Source: Marmoricola sp. (GTDB lineage: Bacteria > Actinomycetota > Actinomycetes > Propionibacteriales > Nocardioidaceae). From it: a stretch of 41,601 bases of DNA. Numbering within the stretch: position 1 is the first letter of the stretch; the number at the start of each line of letters is the position of its first letter. This document shows, piece by piece, positions 23,491 through 41,601 of this stretch. The notes below the pieces were generated by a model that made no database searches, was not told where the DNA came from, and worked only from the letters and a program-made list of their open reading frames with translations. The position numbers were made by a program, and so were the translations under genes. The stretch is taken from the NCBI RefSeq assembly GCF_025965215.1, contig NZ_JAOPXI010000024.1, positions 1 to 41,601 of the forward strand, read 5' to 3'.

Positions 23491-24507
23491 TCAGTTGCAG
23501 ACCGGCGCCTTGTTGTTGCCGTTGCCGAAGGTGTAGTTGATCGACGTCGAGTTGGCGGACAAGGGACCGGAGCCGATCTGCGCCTGGACGAACGCGGTCC
23601 CGGTGGTGTTGTTGCCGCCGGTGAACGTCTGGCTGGTCGCGGATCCGCTGAGTTGGGTGCCCGGATTTCGGGTCACCACGTAGTTGGTGGCGCCCGAAAC
23701 GGCAGTCCAGCTGATCTTGATCGTGTTCGCGACAGTTGTTCCAGCCGTACAGGTGACCCCGGTCGGCGCTGGCGGCGCGCCCCACGTCCCGGTCGTCAGG
23801 GACTGGCCCGTGACGGGGACGCTGGAGGTCCAGGCAGCCCAGGTCGGCATCGCCCACACCAGGACTGCTGCGAACACAGCCCCCAAGACCGCCAACGCGC
23901 TGACAGCCCCGACCACCGGCCGGCGAGCGGTTCGCATCGGTTCGCGCGTTTCGACGCGGGGAATCTCGACCGCGGTGCTCGTTGCCTCAGCGTCGTCGGT
24001 GGGTTCGCGAGGCGTCTTCGGATCCCCGGCCGACCGCCCGATCAACAACAGCATCAAAGCGACGTACGCCGCCACGAGGTACACCCCCGGTGCGCTGGAC
24101 AACCACGAGACGGCGTACCCGACCTTCGGGACGTGGAACAAGACCCGCTGAACCGAGGTGACGTCGTAGACCTTCGGGTCGATCACCTGGTTGGCGTCAC
24201 CCTTGAGGGTGAGCAACCGGTGCGACCCGGAGCCAGTGCTGTCGACCACGCGGTGCGTGACCCGTGCGCCACTGTCGGCAATCACCGAGACGATGTCTCC
24301 CTTGCGCACCCGCGCCGCAGCGACCGAGTGCGAGAACGCGATGTCGCCGGTGCTGATCGTCGGTGACATCGACCCGGATCGGAAGAGCAGCGGGTGAATC
24401 CCGAACGCGAAGCCGATCGCGGTCAACAGCACACAGAGTCCACCCACTACCGCGGTGAAGGTGAGCAACACCTCGCGTGTGAGGCCAGTGAGACGCGACA
24501 GAGTCAT
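23491..24507 (-). CDS. Signal peptidase I (Ser/His type) fused to a substrate-like FN3 half
   Basis: 338 residues in two parts. Part one (1-160) is an S26B (SipW/ER-type) signal peptidase: membrane helix 12-34, nucleophile Ser46 in SGSMSPT, general base His85 in VTHRVV, GDAN at 103-106, and a second helix at about 142-157. The second half begins after a Thr/Glu/Arg-rich cytoplasmic linker. It has a helix at 199-219 followed by [14 protein letters not shown] (224-237). This closely resembles the signal ends of the two nearby secreted proteins (AFWTSS). A Gly/Thr-rich fibronectin III-like domain (about 246-330, [14 protein letters not shown]) completes it. So one chain carries both protease and apparent substrate. 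The ATG overlaps the upstream gene by four bases (ATGA). Last gene of the island's second cluster. Confidence 0.85.
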
Positions 24508-25133
24508 GAGATGTCAGAGGTTCCGATGAATGTGAAGGCGGACGTGGCTGTCTTGCCTCCCGACAAGGTGGTCTGGTCGGCCGTGCTGGACAACTTGATC
24601 GAGATACACAGAGTCTTGTTGCCGCCGCCCGCGATCGCGGCCTGACGAGTCGGGATCACAGCGGTGGTGACGACGTTGGTCATCGCCACATCGGAGACGT
24701 ACGCCGTCGTACCCGCGGTGCAGGTCACGTTCGGCGCAGTTCCGGTCGGAGCGCCATCGGTGATCGTGAGCCTCAGTGCAGCCTGGGTGTTGAAGGCGGC
24801 AGCGTCGCCTGCGTTGACCAGACCGCCTTGCGCCGTCCATTTCAGCGGGACGTTGCCGCCGTTCTTGAGCACCAGAACCTGAGCGACCGAATCGCCGGGG
24901 ACCATCGTGCTCGCTCCCAGTGTCGTCGTGCTGAACGTCGGGCCGGCCGTCGCGGCGGTCGCTCCCGCGAGCAGAGAGATCGAGCCAGACGTCAACGCCT
25001 GCCCCGTGATCGTGGCCGACGAAGTCCAGAACGCAAAGGTCCCCGTGACCGCCAGGCCAAGGACAGCACCGAGGCTGAGCCCAGCACGCACTCGGGTGCT
25101 GCGCAGACGACGAGCCAGGTCAAGCTTCAACAT
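24504..25133 (-). CDS. Secreted TasA/camelysin-like protein, alternative signal
   Basis: A 209-residue exported protein. The signal is basic N-terminus, hydrophobic helix, then GTFAFWTSSATITGQALTSGSI, the pattern of SipW-dependent proteins. The mature part has MVPGDSVAQVLVLKNGGNVPLKWTA, the PGD-plus-beta-strand start seen in TasA/camelysin-like subunits. Two Cys residues (CTAG and LCISI) might form a disulfide. I chose the ATG at 25133, with AGGAAAGG upstream. It overlaps the end of the LPNTG gene by 14 bases and the start of the fused peptidase by four, so all three are translationally coupled. It is a likely fibre subunit; function is inferred. Confidence 0.8.
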   Translation of the reverse strand: MLKLDLARRLRSTRVRAGLSLGAVLGLAVTGTFAFWTSSATITGQALTSGSISLLAGATAATAGPTFSTTTLGASTMVPGDSVAQVLVLKNGGNVPLKWTAQGGLVNAGDAAAFNTQAALRLTITDGAPTGTAPNVTCTAGTTAYVSDVAMTNVVTTAVIPTRQAAIAGGGNKTLCISIKLSSTADQTTLSGGKTATSAFTFIGTSDIS

Positions 25134-25821
25134 GGGAGGGCCTTTCCTCGGGACGGGGGGTGCGGCGTCGGCTGTAGCCGACGAGCCCGATGCCGGATGC
25201 ACAGAGCACGGCAGCGAGAAGGAGCATGGATGGGGTGACGACCGAGCCGGTGTTGGGAAGCGGGCTACTACCTGTGCCGCCGTGTCCCCCCTGCCCGCCG
25301 TGCCCCGTGCCGCCACCGTTGGTGGGCGGCTGGACCGACGCTGCCTGGGTCAGGGCCACGGTGAATCGCAGGTCGAGCTGCGTCGACTGCGACTGGTTGG
25401 TCGAGGCCGGGTCGAAGGTCACCCGCACGTTGATCTTGTGCGAGGCGCCGGACGCCACCGGCACCTGGCGGATCAACGCCTGGGTACCCGGAGTGCTGAC
25501 GTCGGTGAACGGCCCACTGTCGACGCTCGCGCCGACCGTCAGGTCGCCGGTTTCGATCAGGGTCTGTAGGGGACCCGTCAGCATGGTCACGTCCAGTACG
25601 GCGGCATCGGCGCTCTGGTTGCGCACGAAGAAGCTCGCGACCTCCGAGTCCCCGGGAACCCATCGGAACGCCGGATCGAACAGCGGGTTCGGCAGGGTGG
25701 CTGCCCAATGGGTGCCGTCCGGGCTGAGGCCCAGTTCTCCGGCTGCCTGCGCGGACCCTTGGAATCCGAGGGTCACCAGCAGCCCGATCGCCAGGACGAG
25801 GAAGGTACGCACGAGCGGCAT
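25120..25821 (-). CDS. LPNTG-anchored surface protein
   Basis: 233 residues with a classical Sec signal peptide (MPLVRTFLVLAIGLLVTLGF, probable cut after AQA). A beta-rich ectodomain follows, containing WVPGDSEVASFFVRNQSADAAVL, which resembles the PGD region of TasA-like subunits. Then comes a Gly/His-rich spacer, the sortase motif LPNTG, a hydrophobic helix and the basic tail SRRR. It should be linked covalently to peptidoglycan by a sortase, which is not encoded in this window. Unlike its neighbours it lacks the alternative W-containing signal. The ATG shares one base with the stop of the upstream peptidase (TGATG). I infer an anchor or base role for the fibre. Confidence 0.85.
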   Translation of the reverse strand: MPLVRTFLVLAIGLLVTLGFQGSAQAAGELGLSPDGTHWAATLPNPLFDPAFRWVPGDSEVASFFVRNQSADAAVLDVTMLTGPLQTLIETGDLTVGASVDSGPFTDVSTPGTQALIRQVPVASGASHKINVRVTFDPASTNQSQSTQLDLRFTVALTQAASVQPPTNGGGTGHGGQGGHGGTGSSPLPNTGSVVTPSMLLLAAVLCASGIGLVGYSRRRTPRPEERPSHVEA

Positions 25822-26420
25822 CAGCGCACCCCTGCCATCCGCGGTGTCGTCCGATCGTCGGTGGCCTGCGAACCGACCTCCGCGACGGGGGTGCCCTTGC
25901 GGCGCCGATCGCGGACTGCTCCGGCGAATGACACCGCCGAGTAGCCGAGCAAGATCAAGACAGCTCCCATGACGACGATCTGGCGAATGTCTCCGTTGAC
26001 CGCGAGGGCCGGCAGACCGACGTAGGGCACCGAGTACCACCGGACACCGCGGATCTGCACTGGTTCAACCGGTCGCCGATCTGGAGTGTTGTTGGCATCG
26101 CCCTGGGTGATGAAACTAATCTGTCCGCTCAATGACGTCATCACCGCGCGCACGCGGTGAGTCACGACCGTCGGGTCGCCGGACTTGATCTGGTACGTGA
26201 CCACGTCGCCGGTGCGGATCTGGTTGACCGGCGTCGGCCGGACTACTACGACGGTCCCCGGCGGCATTTCCGGACGCATCGACCCGGTGAGGATCGTGTA
26301 CGCCTTGCCGCCACCGAGCATGGGGATGACCACGGTGATCCCCAGGACGACGACAACGAGCCCCGCGGCCAGCAGGGCGAATGCCCTACCGACCACGGTG
26401 CGCACGGTGCGCAAGCTCAT
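25821..26420 (-). CDS. Signal peptidase I (SipW/ER-type, S26B)
   Basis: A 199-residue membrane protease. The first helix (13-35) is followed by the nucleophile Ser47 in LTGSMRPEMPPGT, the dyad His88 in VVTHRVRAV and the GDANN-PD box (107-114). A second helix (about 145-165) and a basic tail end it. The Ser-His dyad in place of Ser-Lys marks the SipW/ER type. It lies between the AFWTSS-type protein (22 bases upstream) and the LPNTG protein, the typical setting of a dedicated peptidase. AGGAG precedes the ATG. Confidence 0.9.
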   Translation of the reverse strand: MSLRTVRTVVGRAFALLAAGLVVVVLGITVVIPMLGGGKAYTILTGSMRPEMPPGTVVVVRPTPVNQIRTGDVVTYQIKSGDPTVVTHRVRAVMTSLSGQISFITQGDANNTPDRRPVEPVQIRGVRWYSVPYVGLPALAVNGDIRQIVVMGAVLILLGYSAVSFAGAVRDRRRKGTPVAEVGSQATDDRTTPRMAGVR

Positions 26421-26442
26421 CGTCGTCTCTCCTGGATTCAGA

Positions 26443-26946
26443 TCACTCGTGGGTCTGGGTCGCGACCAGGTTCAGCGTGTTCAGCGATGCAGTCGCGTTC
26501 TCCGAGGTCGTCGACGTGACTGTGCTCGGGAAGGTGACGTCGATGTTGATCGTGACCGGGTAGCTGCCGGCAGTCGTGACGTGCGCTGCTGGGGAGACCA
26601 TCGTCGCGGTTGCGGTGATTTCCGAACCGAGGGTGCCGGTGACACTGGCCACCGATGCGGGATCAAGGGCCACGGTCGCACCGATGTGGTCGCCGATCAG
26701 GGTCAGCGTCCCGGTGCACTGCTTGGTGATGGTGTCGCCCGGAACGATAGTGGTGACGGGCGTTCCGGTCTCGGTGTGGGTGAAGCTGGCCGGGCAGGTC
26801 ACCGCGGAAAGCGTGATGCTTCCCGAAGCCAGGCTGCCTGCACCAACGGTCTGGCTCGACGTCCAGAACGCGTACGACCCAGCGCCGCCGAGAAGGAGGC
26901 TGCCCGCAGCAGCCGCTGCGAGTGCGCCCTTGGCTGATTTGTTCAT
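26443..26946 (-). CDS. Small secreted protein with alternative (SipW-type) signal
   Basis: 167 residues. The N-terminus MNKSAKGALAAAAAGSLLL leads into GGAGSYAFWTSSQTVGAGSLASGSI, characteristic of the alternate-signal exported proteins known in actinobacteria. The mature part is a compact beta-rich domain with IVPGDTI and one Cys pair (VTCPAS and KQCTG). The ATG at 26946 has AAGGA upstream; the frame extends 19 codons further without support. First gene of the second island cluster and so perhaps its most abundant product. A likely fibre or coat subunit by analogy with TasA/CalY. Confidence 0.8.
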   Translation of the reverse strand: MNKSAKGALAAAAAGSLLLGGAGSYAFWTSSQTVGAGSLASGSITLSAVTCPASFTHTETGTPVTTIVPGDTITKQCTGTLTLIGDHIGATVALDPASVASVTGTLGSEITATATMVSPAAHVTTAGSYPVTINIDVTFPSTVTSTTSENATASLNTLNLVATQTHE

Positions 26947-27008
26947 GAAGATTCCTTTGGGAGAGGTTCGAACGATATGAGCGAAATGGACAACGAGGTC
27001 CACGGCCC

Positions 27009-27073
27009 ATCGTTAGGGCGATCCCGTTCATTCGCGCCCAAAGTCCCGTGTACGCAGTCAAAGGTCCCAAAAC
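27009..27073 (-). promoter_or_regulatory. Candidate promoter region with two dormancy-box-like sites
   Basis: In the 334-base gap 26947-27280, the minus strand shows GGGACCTTTG and then, 21 bases later, GGGACTTTGGGCGCGAA (plus-strand positions 27054-27073 and 27031-27050). Both resemble half or partial forms of the DosR/DevR-type box (GGGACT-WWA-GTCCC), the second at about 15 of 20 positions by eye. A -10-like TAACGAT follows at 27015-27009, 63 bases before the ATG. Two sites two helical turns apart in front of a -10 is the arrangement of DosR-type promoters. I see no gene in this gap. Weak but specific evidence. Confidence 0.35.
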
Positions 27074-27280
27074 GGTCCAGACCGCGCGGCTGACTTATCG
27101 GACACTTCTCCGAATCGAGGTCCCACGGTCTCGTATTCGAGGTATCAACGTGGGTTTGGGCGCGCCACGATCGCTCGCACCTCGCGGCCGCGAATCAAGG
27201 GGCCGAAGCAGGTGCGAAGCACGATCTGTGCCTTCAGCGTCAGGGCCACTGAAACTGTCACTGGCCGTCGCGCGCCTGTC

Positions 27281-28195
27281 CTACGCCACAGCCCTTCGAG
27301 CTCCGGCGGTCGCCGTCCGGGAGCCCGCCGACCCGTGTCGGTGTCGATTCCCGCGAACGGCTGGTCTCGGCCTGACAAGACCGCCGAGCGCACGACTGAT
27401 GGCCGGCAGGAAGCACACCCCGACCAGGCCGATCCACCACCACCACGGGATCGCGGGCGACAAGGTGACGTGCAACCAGCCCCGCCCATCCGTCTTCGCC
27501 ACGTGCACGGTCCCCACCTGTCCTGCCTTGAGCACGACGTGCGGGCCCGCTGCCGCTGACAACCGGATCGGCAGGAGGCCGGTCCCGACGTAGGTGGCGT
27601 CCGCGCCACCATGGGGGGCCGGACTGAAGGCCAGCTGTTGGGCATTGACCAACGGACGCTGCCAGACGATCAGGACGCTCAGCACCACTGATCCGAGCAT
27701 CAGGACCGCCGGCAGCTTCCACGGCGCCGAAAGCACCCTCGTCGCCAGGGCGATCAGGACCCCGCCGAGCACGAGAAGGGGCGCTGCCGCGAGCAACCAG
27801 CCCACACCCCACCAGTGCATCGCCACCTTCCCGACGATGTTCGCAGGCCCCAGCCGCCACGGGTCCGGGGCACTGAGGACTCCCTTGGTCATGATGGTCC
27901 CGTCGGCGTCACGGCGCAGGACACGGTGGCTGTACGTCACTTTGTTGGATCCCGGAGGCCGGAAGGTGATGAAGTCACCTGGTTTCAGGCTGGCGAAGTC
28001 CACCGGCTTGATCCACAGCAACGTGCCGACCGGTGCCACGGTGCCCATCGAGGCGGTCTCGACCCGCTCCCATCTCCCGCCCTCGACGCGCCAGGCCACG
28101 CAGATCGCGACCACCGCGAACGCGGCGATCAGCGCCGCCCAGGACAGCAGCCCTCGGGCAACCTCGCGGTGGTGCTCGGCGTGACGGGGCGTCAT
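27281..28195 (-). CDS. Divergent signal peptidase-like membrane protein
   Basis: 304 residues. The first helix (about 17-35) is followed by VETASMGTVAPVGTLLWIKP with candidate nucleophile Ser49, and TYSHRVLRR with candidate base His90. KPGDFITF matches the GD-hydrophobic strand of S26 peptidases. The usual GDAN box is replaced by KGVLSAPDPW. After the protease domain come helices at about 133-150 and 163-178, an outside segment of about 70 residues (AQQLAFSPAP...), and a last helix starting at the Trp-rich PWWWWIGLVGV. It thus also carries a C-terminal extra half, like the fused peptidase at 23491. Last gene of the first island cluster, ten bases after the LamG-like gene. Confidence 0.75.
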   Translation of the reverse strand: MTPRHAEHHREVARGLLSWAALIAAFAVVAICVAWRVEGGRWERVETASMGTVAPVGTLLWIKPVDFASLKPGDFITFRPPGSNKVTYSHRVLRRDADGTIMTKGVLSAPDPWRLGPANIVGKVAMHWWGVGWLLAAAPLLVLGGVLIALATRVLSAPWKLPAVLMLGSVVLSVLIVWQRPLVNAQQLAFSPAPHGGADATYVGTGLLPIRLSAAAGPHVVLKAGQVGTVHVAKTDGRGWLHVTLSPAIPWWWWIGLVGVCFLPAISRALGGLVRPRPAVRGNRHRHGSAGSRTATAGARRAVA

Positions 28196-28205
28196 CGTCT
28201 CGTCC

Positions 28206-29615
28206 TCATGAGATGAACACCCCGGTCGCGCCGTCCCAGGTCAGGATGGCCGTCCAGTTGCTGGCCGGAGGTGCTGAGAGACGCTGACTCAGCGGCGCGT
28301 AGAGATGCAGACCGGCCACATAGGCGTTCCACGTCGCGTCGCGGGTCAGCGTGACCGTCGAGGTCTGCGATCCCCCGGCACCGGGCGCGGTGACGGCGTG
28401 CCAGGTGCCGTTCGCGAAGGTCGACAACTTGGTACCAGCCGCCGACGCCGTACCGCTCGGACTGGTGAACGTCCAAGCCAGGTCGACCATGCTGCAGGCC
28501 GAGGTCGCACCGATGGTCGGCAAGGAGCCGGCGTAGGTGGTGGTCCCGGTGTCGTCGAGCATCCAGACCTGGCTGGCGCCGCTCAGCGCCTGTGCCGCCG
28601 TGCTGTACGCCGCAGCCGATGCCGCAGTGAACAGGCTCGACACCGTTCCCGAGCTCACCGAGTTGCCGGCCACGAACGCACCGGAGAGCGACCCTGTCAG
28701 GTAGGCCGATGTCGGTGAGTTGCTGACCCCGGTGAAGTCGCCCCAGCCGGCGTGCCAGTAGGCGTTGCCCCCGGTGAGTGCGGTGAGGCCGGATGCCGAT
28801 ACCCCGGCCGCGTTGTCGACGTACAGGGTCGGGGTGGAGACGATGACCGACGCCACGCTCAGCACGGCCAGATGCCAGTTGCCGTCGTTGTACGCCGCCG
28901 CCGAGACCCCGCTGGTCGTGGTGCCCAAGGTCCCTGAGACGCGGAACCGGACCTTGCCGGCGTTGTCCATCCACAGCAGCGGTGTCCCGGCGACCGACGA
29001 CGAGTCGATCGCGCTGGTCGCCATCGAGAGCAGGCCGCCGCCGGACGTGTAGCCGTTGGCCACCTTGAACCACACGCCGAACGCGTAGCTGCCACCGAGC
29101 AGCGAGGCAGTGCTGGTGGCCACGACGTCTGAGGCGTACGCGGAGCCGCCACTCAGTGCGACGGCCGAGGAGGTCCCCCACTTGTCGGTCTGTCCGAACG
29201 CGACCGCGTACCGGGGCAACATCGGATCTGTCGACGTCTTCACGTTGGCGAACTTCACCGGCGCGCACGACGGCGCGCGGAACTCAGAGGTCAGCTGGCT
29301 GGCCGAGAGTGGGCTGTTGTTGGTGAACGTGTCGGTGGCACTGACCCCGCCTACCGTGGCCGCCACGGTCGGGCCGATGCTGCCGCCGCACGAGGTGGTC
29401 CCGGACATCCGCGCGGTGAGCGAGCAGGACGTCGCCTGGTACGCATGCGTGACGGCCAGCGATCCGGTCAGGCTGGAGTTGGCGGAGTTGAGCACGACGC
29501 CCGCGTTCCAGGACGACAGCGTCCCCGAGCTCGCCGTCCACACGACGGCCAGGGCCACCGTGACCACCCCCCAGGCCCAGCGACCCGGGCCGCGTCGAGG
29601 GACGCGCCTCATCAC
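28206..29615 (-). CDS. Secreted LamG-like protein with SipW-type signal
   Basis: 469 residues. A basic start and one helix lead to SSGTLSSWNAGVVLNS (29-44), nearly the same signal end as in the two proteins encoded upstream. The middle (about 140-310) reads as a LamG/concanavalin-like jelly roll: AFGVWFKVANGYTSGGGLLSM, DNAGKVRFRV, DGNWHLAVLSV, LYVDNAAG. The C-terminal 120 residues are Ser/Thr/Ala-rich with a further beta region. Such domains often bind glycans. Start is GTG at 29615 (an ATG follows directly), three bases after the preceding stop. A surface adhesin-like role is inferred. Confidence 0.75.
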   Translation of the reverse strand: MMRRVPRRGPGRWAWGVVTVALAVVWTASSGTLSSWNAGVVLNSANSSLTGSLAVTHAYQATSCSLTARMSGTTSCGGSIGPTVAATVGGVSATDTFTNNSPLSASQLTSEFRAPSCAPVKFANVKTSTDPMLPRYAVAFGQTDKWGTSSAVALSGGSAYASDVVATSTASLLGGSYAFGVWFKVANGYTSGGGLLSMATSAIDSSSVAGTPLLWMDNAGKVRFRVSGTLGTTTSGVSAAAYNDGNWHLAVLSVASVIVSTPTLYVDNAAGVSASGLTALTGGNAYWHAGWGDFTGVSNSPTSAYLTGSLSGAFVAGNSVSSGTVSSLFTAASAAAYSTAAQALSGASQVWMLDDTGTTTYAGSLPTIGATSACSMVDLAWTFTSPSGTASAAGTKLSTFANGTWHAVTAPGAGGSQTSTVTLTRDATWNAYVAGLHLYAPLSQRLSAPPASNWTAILTWDGATGVFIS

Positions 29616-29618
29616 GGC

Positions 29619-30296
29619 CTACTTGTTGAGGGTCCACGTGAGCGGCTGGCTCGCTGTGATCCCCTGGTCGAGAACGCTCGCTGCACTGTCGAGCGCCACG
29701 GTGAAGCGGCAGGTGAACGATGCCGATGCAGCGATGGTCGCCGTGTGGGTCAGGGTCGCGCCGATGCTGGCCGGCGCCCCCGCCACGTACTTGAGGTCGG
29801 ACCAGGCAGTGCCCGCGTTGTAGGTCGCCCCGTCCGAGCACGAGATCGCGACGGTGAGCTCACCATTGGTGCAGATGTTGTTGGCGGCCGGTGACCCGGA
29901 GCCCGCGGTCGGGTTCTGGGTACACGTGCCACGGGTGAGGACGAAGGACGACGCTGCCGAGGAGCCCACGTTGCTGAACACCACGTCGGTGACCTGGTTG
30001 GCGCCCGGCGTCAGCGGAGTGGTGACTCCGCCGTACTTGTTGATGGTGCTGCAGGTGAACGAGTTTCCTACCCCGCTGCTCGACAGGCACGTCGCCGACG
30101 GTCCGACCTCCTGAAGGATCACGGCCGTGGCGGTGGCGACGGTGTTGGTGTCGTTGCCGATCACGGCGGCGGTCCAGGACGAGAGCGTGCCGTTCGTGCT
30201 GAGGACGAGCAGGAGCGCAGAGAATCCGCAGGCGACCCAGACGAGGGCGCTGCGGCTCGTGCGGCGTCGATTCCGGTTCCTGTGGTGACCAGACAT
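29619..30296 (-). CDS. Secreted TasA-like protein, GTLSSW signal (paralogue 2)
   Basis: 225 residues. Arg-rich start, helix, then STNGTLSSWTAAVIGND, followed by VATATAVILQEVGPSATC and INKYGGVTTPLTPG. These match the protein encoded just upstream over the same positions, so the two are paralogues. The mature part is Thr/Ser/Val-rich with several Cys residues (TCLSS, FTCST, GTCTQN, NICTN, ISCSD), suggesting disulfides outside the cell. I chose the ATG at 30296 because GGGGAGGAG stands seven bases upstream. A strong hairpin separates it from paralogue 1. Confidence 0.78.
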   Translation of the reverse strand: MSGHHRNRNRRRTSRSALVWVACGFSALLLVLSTNGTLSSWTAAVIGNDTNTVATATAVILQEVGPSATCLSSSGVGNSFTCSTINKYGGVTTPLTPGANQVTDVVFSNVGSSAASSFVLTRGTCTQNPTAGSGSPAANNICTNGELTVAISCSDGATYNAGTAWSDLKYVAGAPASIGATLTHTATIAASASFTCRFTVALDSAASVLDQGITASQPLTWTLNK

Positions 30297-30322
30297 GCGG
30301 CGCTCCTCCCCGTGCGGTGGTG

Positions 30323-30356
30323 CCGGGGGTGTGGAGGTTACTCTCCCCACCCCCGG
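30323..30356 (-). terminator. Intercistronic hairpin between the two GTLSSW paralogues
   Basis: A 14-base stem with one mismatch (CCGGGGGTGTGGAG / CTCCCCACCCCCGG) and a six-base loop begins five bases after the stop of paralogue 1. No T-run follows, and the ribosome binding site of paralogue 2 lies just beyond it. It probably protects or partly terminates the upstream message, raising the first protein over the rest, as for major subunits of pili and fibres. Confidence 0.65.
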
Positions 30357-30360
30357 ACGT

Positions 30361-31026
30361 TTAGCTGGCTGTCAGCGTCCAGTGAAGGACCTGCGAGGCA
30401 ACCTGCGATGAGTACCCGGCGGGCGTGCCCGACGGGAGGTTCAAGGTGAAGGTGCAGTCGGTCGCCGCGCCTGCCGCGAGCGTGCCGACAGCGCCACCGG
30501 TGAACGAGCTGAGCACGACGGGCGTGCCGGTCGTGTCGAGCGTCGCGGGACTGGTGCACGCGACCGTGACGGTCACCTTGGCGCAGACCGGGAAGTCGGT
30601 CGGGTCCGCGGTGGTCGACCCGCCGAGTGCCGTGGAGCCACACGTGTCGGCCGCCAGGACGAGATCGCCCTGCCCGGTCCCGGTGTTCTTCAGGTTGACC
30701 GTGACTGCCTGGGAGTCACCGCCGCTGATGCTGTCCGGGTTGAGCGGGGTTCCGGTGCCGCCGTACTTGTTGATCGAGGAGCAGTTCGAGACCTGGTTGG
30801 TGGTCGTGGACGTGGTGTCGCAGGTGACCGCACCAGGGCCGGTTTCGAGCAGGGCCACCGCGTGGGTCGAGGCCACCGTGTTGTTGGTGTTGTCGATGAT
30901 GGCCGATGTCCAGCTCGACAGGGTCCCGTTGACGCCCAGGACGAGGATCGCGGCCGAGAACGCGCCGCTGGCCCAGAGTGCGCCGGTACGACGACGCTTG
31001 TTCTTGTCGCTCGTGGTTTCGCTCAT
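30361..31026 (-). CDS. Secreted TasA-like protein, GTLSSW signal (paralogue 1)
   Basis: 221 residues. The signal has KNKRRR, one helix (ALWASGAFSAAILVLGV) and NGTLSSWTSAIIDNTNNTVAST. The rest follows the paralogue downstream: ALLETGPGAVTC, INKYGGTGTPLNPD and then GGDSQAVTVNLKNTGTG, which is the PGD-type strand region of TasA-like subunits. Six or more Cys residues are spread through the mature chain. First gene of the island's first cluster and followed by a strong hairpin, so it may be the most expressed. Structural subunit is the best inference; no catalytic motif is seen. Confidence 0.78.
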   Translation of the reverse strand: MSETTSDKNKRRRTGALWASGAFSAAILVLGVNGTLSSWTSAIIDNTNNTVASTHAVALLETGPGAVTCDTTSTTTNQVSNCSSINKYGGTGTPLNPDSISGGDSQAVTVNLKNTGTGQGDLVLAADTCGSTALGGSTTADPTDFPVCAKVTVTVACTSPATLDTTGTPVVLSSFTGGAVGTLAAGAATDCTFTLNLPSGTPAGYSSQVASQVLHWTLTAS

Positions 31027-40906: not shown

Positions 40907-41601
40907 ATGAGTCGAAGTAGCGCCTCTCGGCCGGCTCAGGAGAAGCGTGGCTTCGGGCAGGTCTCGAAGATGCGGAGCGGGCGCTATCAGGCCCGCTACA
41001 CCGGTCCCGACGGAGGCCGGCACTCAGCGCCTACGACCTTCGAAGCGAAGGAAGATGCCGTCGCATGGCTGCGCGCAGAGCGCCCGCTCGTCGAGGACCC
41101 CGAGAGCTGGGAGCCGCCCAAGGTCCGGTTGGTGAAGGCTCAGACCCGGCTCACGTTCGACAGTTACGCCGACAAGTGGTTGGAGGAGCGGCCACTCAAG
41201 CCGCGCACCCGTGCCCACTACCGCCGACTTCTCGACGTCCAGCTCTTTCCCACGTTCGGCGACATGGACCTGACCAAGATCACCACAGACGTCGTCAACC
41301 ACTGGTACGCCCTGATGGGTCCTAGTCGCCCCGCGTTGCGCGCACATGCCTACGCCCTGCTCCGGACCATCCTCAGCGAGGTCGAGCAAGACGAACTCAT
41401 CTCCAAGAATCCCTGCCACATCAGAGGTGCTGGAAACACCCGACGCGTCCACCGGGTCAAGCCAGCGTCCCTCGACGAACTCACCACGCTCGTCAGCGCG
41501 ATGCCCCAACGCCTCCAGGCGATGACCCTCCTCGCAGCGTGGTGCGGACTCCGATTCGGCGAGCTCACCGAGCTGCGCCGTAAGGACGTCGACCTCAAAG
41601 C
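40907..41601 (+). CDS. Tyrosine recombinase (phage-type integrase), cut by the window edge
   Basis: The first 231 codons are present and run off the right edge. The N-terminal part has a GFGQVSKMRSGRYQARYTGPDGGRHSA segment split by an AP2-like arm-binding fold, then the SAM-like core-binding domain (TFDSYADKWLEERPLKPRTRAHYRRLL). The catalytic domain begins with the first active-site Arg in AAWCGLRFGELTELR (about residue 216). The remaining catalytic residues and Tyr lie outside the window. ATG at 40907 has GGAG eight bases upstream. Its gene starts 166 bases inside the tRNA fragment, as for site-specific integrases of actinobacterial phages and integrative plasmids. Confidence 0.92.
   Translation, partial: MSRSSASRPAQEKRGFGQVSKMRSGRYQARYTGPDGGRHSAPTTFEAKEDAVAWLRAERPLVEDPESWEPPKVRLVKAQTRLTFDSYADKWLEERPLKPRTRAHYRRLLDVQLFPTFGDMDLTKITTDVVNHWYALMGPSRPALRAHAYALLRTILSEVEQDELISKNPCHIRGAGNTRRVHRVKPASLDELTTLVSAMPQRLQAMTLLAAWCGLRFGELTELRRKDVDLK

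Follow-up and report, generated by a model that had tools for sequence, protein, structure and literature searches.

The window analysed here, positions 1 to 41,601 of contig NZ_JAOPXI010000024.1 of a Marmoricola sp. (Nocardioidaceae), carries nine genes, here called A to I, that encode three Ser-His signal peptidases (D, F and I), four small secreted proteins with a Trp-containing (W) signal (A, B, E and H), a LamG-like protein (C) and a protein with an LPNTG wall anchor (G). Two neighbouring sets of these genes, EFGHI and ABCD, probably build TasA-like surface fibres, each with a dedicated signal peptidase. The two sets are separable modules that differ in the residue before the predicted signal cleavage site (P1) and in the N-terminal arm that follows the site. 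A preliminary description of the locus, made from the DNA alone, had listed the same nine proteins, and this inventory was confirmed, coordinates included. It had missed that peptidase I carries a third membrane segment, a TWA-AW site (here and below the hyphen marks the cut) and an FN3-like domain.

Signals, peptidases and predicted folds

The aromatic residue keeps a constant position relative to the small-residue site in all six carriers of the W signal, being the second residue after it (P2'). We aligned selections of related proteins together with those of the window (30 of the 76 E proteins found, 56 of 60 H, 15 of 15 A/B, 7 of 8 C, 28 of 32 G and 27 hand-picked I proteins), leaving aside the H proteins of loci L086, L104, L108 and L119, the C protein of L087, four G and 46 E proteins. 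P2' is W, F or Y in 140 of the 141 aligned rows and in none of the 29 rows of the conventional signal of G, which served as control. It is W in every E (31/31), A/B (17/17) and C (8/8) row, W in 56 and Y in one of the 57 H rows, and at the internal site of I, 27 of the 28 rows have W, F or Y. The I rows include two stand-alone cargoes, one of which (L131) accounts for the sole non-aromatic P2'. All 115 E, H and I rows that can be read at P1 have Ala there; the 24 readable A, B and C rows have Ser in 20 cases and Ala in four. The excerpted text of PMC10269814 states that SipW cuts TasA at TWA-AFND and that an aromatic P2' is poorly cut by LepB. Together, the P2' rule and the SipW-type peptidases support dedicated processing, in which the cuts themselves and the pairing of peptidase with substrate are predictions from sequence.

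Existing family models recover part of this signal class. TIGR04088, the NCBIfam model of the SipW-dependent signal (cut-off 19 bits), accepts E (19.9) and H (22.0), places the internal signal of I below its cut-off (11.1 bits) and gives nothing for A, B or C. When the source genome (3.6 Mb in 206 contigs, the window lying on contig C72) was searched with it at E <= 10, four matches were obtained, and the two above the cut-off are E and H. TIGR04089 (cut-off 60 bits) is passed by E (116.5), with H below it (16.2) and A, B and C unmatched; the NCBIfam search as a whole returned no match for A, B or C. For C, Pfam gives a Laminin_G_3 match that stays under the cut-off. E (15.2) and H (15.5) score under the gathering threshold of camelysin PF12389 (22.5), which no other window protein matches, and a Pfam-based assignment of E or H as camelysin was therefore ruled out. 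The idea that the W signal is confined to the locus was likewise discarded, because contig C22 of the same genome carries an orphan B-type gene (L163:640-1269; G000:C22:640-1269). A second orphan B-type gene was seen at L164:4736-5365, and no peptidase gene was recognised near either orphan within the stretches read.

The catalytic pair of D is S49/H90 (those of F and I are given in Table 1). TIGR02228 (NCBIfam, cut-off 51.85 bits) is passed by F (84.7) and I (67.5), with D below (36.6), and the equivalog model for Bacillus SipW, NF046067 (cut-off 190 bits), is reached by none of them (F 69.7, I 55.5, D no match). In the peptidase tree the 28 I rows form one group (support 100/98) and the nine D rows another (100/100), D standing as a separate group; the F-type requires two changes. 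The closest named records of F come from Propionibacteriales, Marmoricola and Nocardioides.

The preliminary description had proposed a comparison of the four small proteins with TasA, and for the two that were compared by model, H and B, this came out in favour of its suggestion. For the models of mature H (57 rows, pLDDT 87) and mature B (17 rows, pLDDT 84), the TasA fibre 8aur was the only PDB match at E <= 0.001 (H 1.2e-4, B 8.2e-5). A second structural comparison aligned residues 2-175 of the H model with TasA 28-235 (Z 8.6), and for B gave TasA a Z of 8.1, tied with the Pyrobaculum bundling pilus. Profile-profile comparison returned probabilities of 98% for E-H, 97% for G-E, 90% for G-H, 95% for A/B-H and 93% for C-A/B, and 0.3% for the control pair F-H. 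The TasA-like fold thus holds where it was modelled, and the profiles suggest that E, G, A and C are related to H and B.

Several observations weigh against this assignment. The Z scores of 8.1-8.6 lie just above the 7 to 8 that models lacking a clear match usually reach, and confidence in the arms is low in both models (pLDDT near 56 for H residues 1-10, below 50 for B residues 1-15). Searched against PDB sequences, the H profile ranks the ciliary proteins FAP74 (2e-4) and FAP65 (0.0014) first and reaches AbpX (0.005) and TasA (E 0.056) only after them; the A/B profile gave no match in that search. The shared signal contributes to the E-H, A/B-H and C-A/B similarities, although not to those of G, and folds were modelled for H and B, with E, A and G tied to them by profile.

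Peptidase I and its fused cargo

In peptidase I the peptidase domain is followed by a second membrane segment, and a basic linker then leads to a third, which ends in the internal TWA-AW site; behind this lies a cargo of 114 residues. The cargo profile matches FN3 domains (best E 6.3e-6) and has two invariant Cys in 16 rows. This arrangement is common among the 55 I-type peptidases that score at least 150 bits in 80 named loci (weaker matches were dropped): a cargo is fused in 51 and an internal site is present in 47, with cargoes of 99-470 residues in these 47. A like test of F-type peptidases found 0 of 79, the membrane scan there starting 95 instead of 78 residues past the His and a 60-residue cargo being required in addition. 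Among the 51 fused proteins the permissive site pattern occurs in 47, compared with 19.9 in shuffles, and the strict pattern T.A.[WFY] in 41, compared with 4.2. The type of cargo varies among relatives and may be FN3-like, Big or LamG. LamG-fused SipW-like peptidases were seen at L036:8360-9772 and L038:7919-9520, the former with an internal AEA-AF site.

Eight of the 55 I-type peptidases lack a site, which counts against the proposed processing; four of these are fused proteins in which no aromatic site was found, and four are unfused (L104, L122, L123 and L131). In L131 (Rhodococcus ARC_M6) the cargo is the next, overlapping gene and has its own N-terminal signal (L131:11775-12824). L123 has a stand-alone cargo with an N-terminal signal (L123:12053-13072) and the peptidase gene downstream on the opposite strand, and in L122 the next gene is cargo-like and has, as called, a short hydrophobic start only. 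Stand-alone cargoes are found in some Nocardiaceae, with an N-terminal signal that is clear in L131 and L123. Their P2' is aromatic in L122 only, a further point against the proposed processing, being Pro in L131 and Leu in L123, and the detached cargo may therefore no longer need a SipW-type enzyme. The split looks derived, because the peptidases of L122 and L131 nest among fused ones in the tree. Two of these loci also encode an E-like domain (L122:12905-13495, 46 bits; L123:10633-11208, 57 bits) behind an N-terminus that we take to resemble a lipobox; a membrane-held version is one possible interpretation.

Two modules and their N-terminal arms

Strong A/B matches (E <= 1e-20; the weaker census matches G036, G165 and G171 were dropped) occur in 11 of 148 family genomes, E in 69 and both in 7, so that A/B is found without E in 4 of 11 genomes, and 62 of the 69 genomes with E have no strong A/B match. 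Three of the four E-less A/B genomes have the genes at the same site, adjoining a gene that is presumably PdxT-like. Both modules are present in 7 of the 16 listed loci, where they are neighbours or lie three genes apart, in either order, and ABCD genes occur in 8 of the 80 named loci. Across the phylum, A/B was detected in 3 of 396 genomes (E <= 1e-6) and TIGR04089 in 3 of 296 (E <= 1e-10), so both are patchy. Named loci with E, F, H and I include Nocardioides, Arthrobacter, Glutamicibacter, Rhodococcus, Gordonia and Aeromicrobium. Aeromicrobium Leaf350 (L114) has two tandem EFGHI sets.

Co-variation of the arms, taken as the 15 residues after the aromatic P2', was assessed by comparing scores within and between loci against 2000 shuffles. 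The I arm resembles the H arm of its own locus (34.5) more than the H arms of other loci (22.1; z 7.3, 0 of 2000 shuffles, n = 28 loci), and this match was retained within Nocardioidaceae (z 6.7, n 20), a hand-picked set that includes L075 and L087, which are titled Propionibacteriales only. The I-H controls are flat, with z 0.9 for the hydrophobic regions and z -0.4 for the next 30 mature residues. A match is also seen between the arms of H and E (z 5.3), and a weak one between those of I and E (z 1.7). The shuffles take no account of kinship, but kinship by itself does not give two old paralogues of one genome such a likeness; gene conversion could be a source of it. Co-variation of the EFGHI arms next to flanks that mostly do not co-vary fits a shared groove. 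Against this stand the I-E match that also extends beyond the arm (z 2.9, n 16) and the behaviour of the ABCD arms (7-8 loci), where A-B (z 0.5) and A-C (z -0.1) show no locus-specific match; B-C does (z 2.6, n 8). The ABCD arms are alike overall, with mean scores of 15 to 39, and cross-module means are -3 to 4. A single nine-gene machine was rejected, since the modules occur apart and arms across modules do not match. The preliminary view of one locus with its own processing enzymes is supported as regards the processing, by the P2' rule and the SipW-type peptidases, and does not hold for the single machine, there being two modules. The LPXTG protein belongs to EFGHI.

That LPXTG protein, G, passes TIGR01167 (18.4, cut-off 15.9) and scores 18.3 in Pfam PF00746, under its threshold of 20; the genome holds ten sortase matches, nine of them over the cut-off. 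The G-E profile match starts beside the mature N-terminus of G and opposite E residue 40, which leaves G short of roughly the first 14 residues of mature E. G may accordingly be described, from its profile, as a predicted subunit fold without an arm. A point against the assembly proposed below is that G was not found in several E-F-H-I loci, for example L078, L103, L109 and L125.

All nine reading frames are open and lie on the minus strand between 31026 and 23491, running from A to D and, after a gap of 334 bases, from E to I (Table 1). The start of G lies on the stop of F (TGATG), G and H overlap by 14 bases and the start of I lies on the stop of H (ATGA); because of these overlaps E-I looks like one transcript. 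The hairpin behind A may favour A over B-D. A scan for promoters and terminators yielded nothing above shuffles, and a tRNA scan of the window yielded none. At the far end of the window, a reading frame at 40907-41599 runs off the window end; it resembles what we take to be the N-terminal part of a phage-type integrase.

Table 1 Features of the nine-gene locus, in window coordinates
Feature	Position	Strand	Remarks
A: small secreted protein, six-Cys family of B, site GTLS-SW	30361..31026	-	39% identical to B
Hairpin directly 3' of the A stop	30320..30358	-	-29.3 kcal/mol, z -3.2
B: small secreted protein, site GTLS-SW, predicted TasA-like β-sandwich	29619..30296	-	
C: LamG-like protein, W signal as in A/B; N-terminal part A/B-related	28206..29615	-	
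D: Ser-His signal peptidase of the ABCD module; conserved C-terminal stretch between further hydrophobic segments	27281..28195	-	
E: TIGR04089 small secreted protein, H-related, site SYA-FW	26443..26946	-	
E arm: first 18 predicted mature residues	26815..26868	-	
F: SipW-type signal peptidase, S47/H88	25821..26420	-	
G: LPNTG wall protein, conventional signal AQA-AG, subunit-like body without N-terminal arm (by profile)	25120..25821	-	
H: small secreted protein, site TFA-FW, predicted TasA-like fibre subunit	24504..25133	-	
H arm: first 18 predicted mature residues	24978..25031	-	
I, residues 1-160: SipW-type peptidase domain, S46/H85, first and second membrane segments (TM1 + TM2)	24028..24507	-	
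I, residues 161-224: basic linker and third membrane segment, end TWA, internal TasA-type signal	23836..24027	-	
I, residues 225-338: cargo, arm plus FN3-like domain, two invariant Cys	23491..23835	-	
I, residues 225-242: N-terminal arm of the cargo, tracks the H arm	23782..23835	-	

Proposed assembly and relation to known systems

By analogy with TasA and TapA, we view E and H as candidate subunits, the cargo of I as a putative starter and G as a putative fibre end. E and H would be exported with signals that their aromatic P2' reserves for the SipW-type peptidases F and/or I, and the cut would lay bare some 15 N-terminal residues, an arm to complete the β-sandwich of the subunit that follows. 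The C-terminus of I would offer an internal signal of the same class followed by an H-like arm and the FN3-like domain; its cut, by I itself or by F, would free a TapA-like starter that is membrane-held until then. G would act as an acceptor-only subunit, and a sortase would use its LPXTG tail to tie the fibre end to the wall. ABCD would form a second fibre, with A and B as subunits bearing a different arm, C as a LamG-like head and D cutting mostly the Ser-P1 sites of that module. We favour this joint model, of two donor-strand fibre modules, a starter released from I and a wall-anchored, acceptor-only G, with moderate confidence. A more specific version is tentative and falls a little short of an even chance: I would be the carrier of its own substrate and cut itself to release the starter, the arm-less, sortase-anchored subunit would close the other end, and modules with separate arm codes would remain unmixed.

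Peptidase I might instead retain its third membrane segment uncleaved and use the C-terminal part as a docking domain, with a W site that is either a leftover or, as a mimic, serves to inhibit or position the active site. Its topology fits an uncut membrane protein too, D has a further membrane segment comparable to that of I, with an RPL..A motif lacking an aromatic P2', and four fused relatives are without the site. We nevertheless consider an uncut I fairly unlikely, since Ala at P1 is invariant (28 of 28 rows) and an aromatic P2' nearly so (27 of 28), the split loci have a free cargo with an N-terminal signal, clear in L131 and L123, and the cargo type varies.

That the W-signal proteins carry the TasA fold and are surface monomers or adhesins that do not polymerise is, in our judgement, unlikely. 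It is favoured by the fact that fibres are deduced here from sequences and models only, and by Pfam naming the camelysin family a metallo-endopeptidase, although E and H fall below that cut-off. The arms of EFGHI co-vary within loci when their flanks mostly do not, as a shared groove would lead one to expect, and the best structural match of H is the fibre form of TasA, arm included. Nor do we favour a single fibre built by all nine genes, in which ABCD would supply the tip or an adhesin; we regard it as a little less likely still: the closeness of the modules in the seven loci with both would suit it, and against it stand the four E-less A/B genomes, three of them at the same PdxT-like site, and the difference in arms and P1 residues between the modules.

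The donor-strand model can be compared with several described systems. As far as the excerpted sources go, the tapA-sipW-tasA genes of Bacillus subtilis have in common with the locus a SipW-type Ser-His peptidase, TasA-fold subunits with an aromatic P2' and a starter gene (tapA) beside the peptidase gene, with which it overlaps. In donor-strand exchange, these sources describe TasA residues 28-38 as the donor and TapA as donating its N-terminus, the first strand, to start TasA fibres (PMC10151520). TapA is characterised by an Ig-like domain and an essential N-terminal arm, and by a gene beside that of SipW; the I cargo has an arm and an FN3-like domain, and its likeness to TapA is putative. 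Unlike in B. subtilis, the starter-like piece here is fused to a peptidase, EFGHI has two peptidases (the locus three), two modules have different arms and an LPXTG protein has a predicted subunit fold, which bears out the preliminary statement that the locus is more complex than its Bacillus counterpart. The systems defined in NCBIfam by TIGR04088/TIGR04089 and TIGR02228 take in F and I as well as E and H, the last through its signal only; G is recognised solely by its LPXTG tail, and the internal signal of I goes unreported.

The structural matches of H and B include the Pyrobaculum bundling pilus (7ueg) and the Sulfolobus thread (7pnb), both archaeal. According to the excerpt of PMC9715654, the thread is joined by donor strands and its proposed cap has an arm and no groove, whereas G would have a groove and no arm. 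The sipW-bsaA genes of Clostridium perfringens likewise specify a SipW-dependent polymer outside Bacillus; the excerpt of that report mentions neither a fused peptidase nor a wall anchor and records no effect of srtB deletion (PMC7395162). The CapP-TasA-CalY system of Bacillus cereus shares two structural subunits and an accessory assembly protein and is described, in the corresponding excerpt, as sortase-independent, unlike the system here with its LPXTG partner (PMC13082335). Among the open-licence PMC matches listed, judged by titles and abstract starts, none concerned an actinobacterial TasA/SipW fibre locus or a substrate-fused peptidase.

The fibre literature that we found covers Bacillus, Clostridium and archaea. 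To the questions of the start, growth direction and cell attachment of TasA-type fibres, the parts list of this locus suggests testable answers in the form of a peptidase-tied starter, an arm-less terminal subunit and arms that act as an address code. Named isolates that have related loci belong to Nocardioides, Arthrobacter, Rhodococcus and Aeromicrobium. A protease with its own substrate behind a membrane segment is an unusual arrangement. If the proposal is true, the supply of starter would be tied one to one to the processing enzyme, the arm of the starter would evolve with the arm of the subunit that it primes, and two modules with separate arm codes and cleavage preferences would coexist side by side unmixed.

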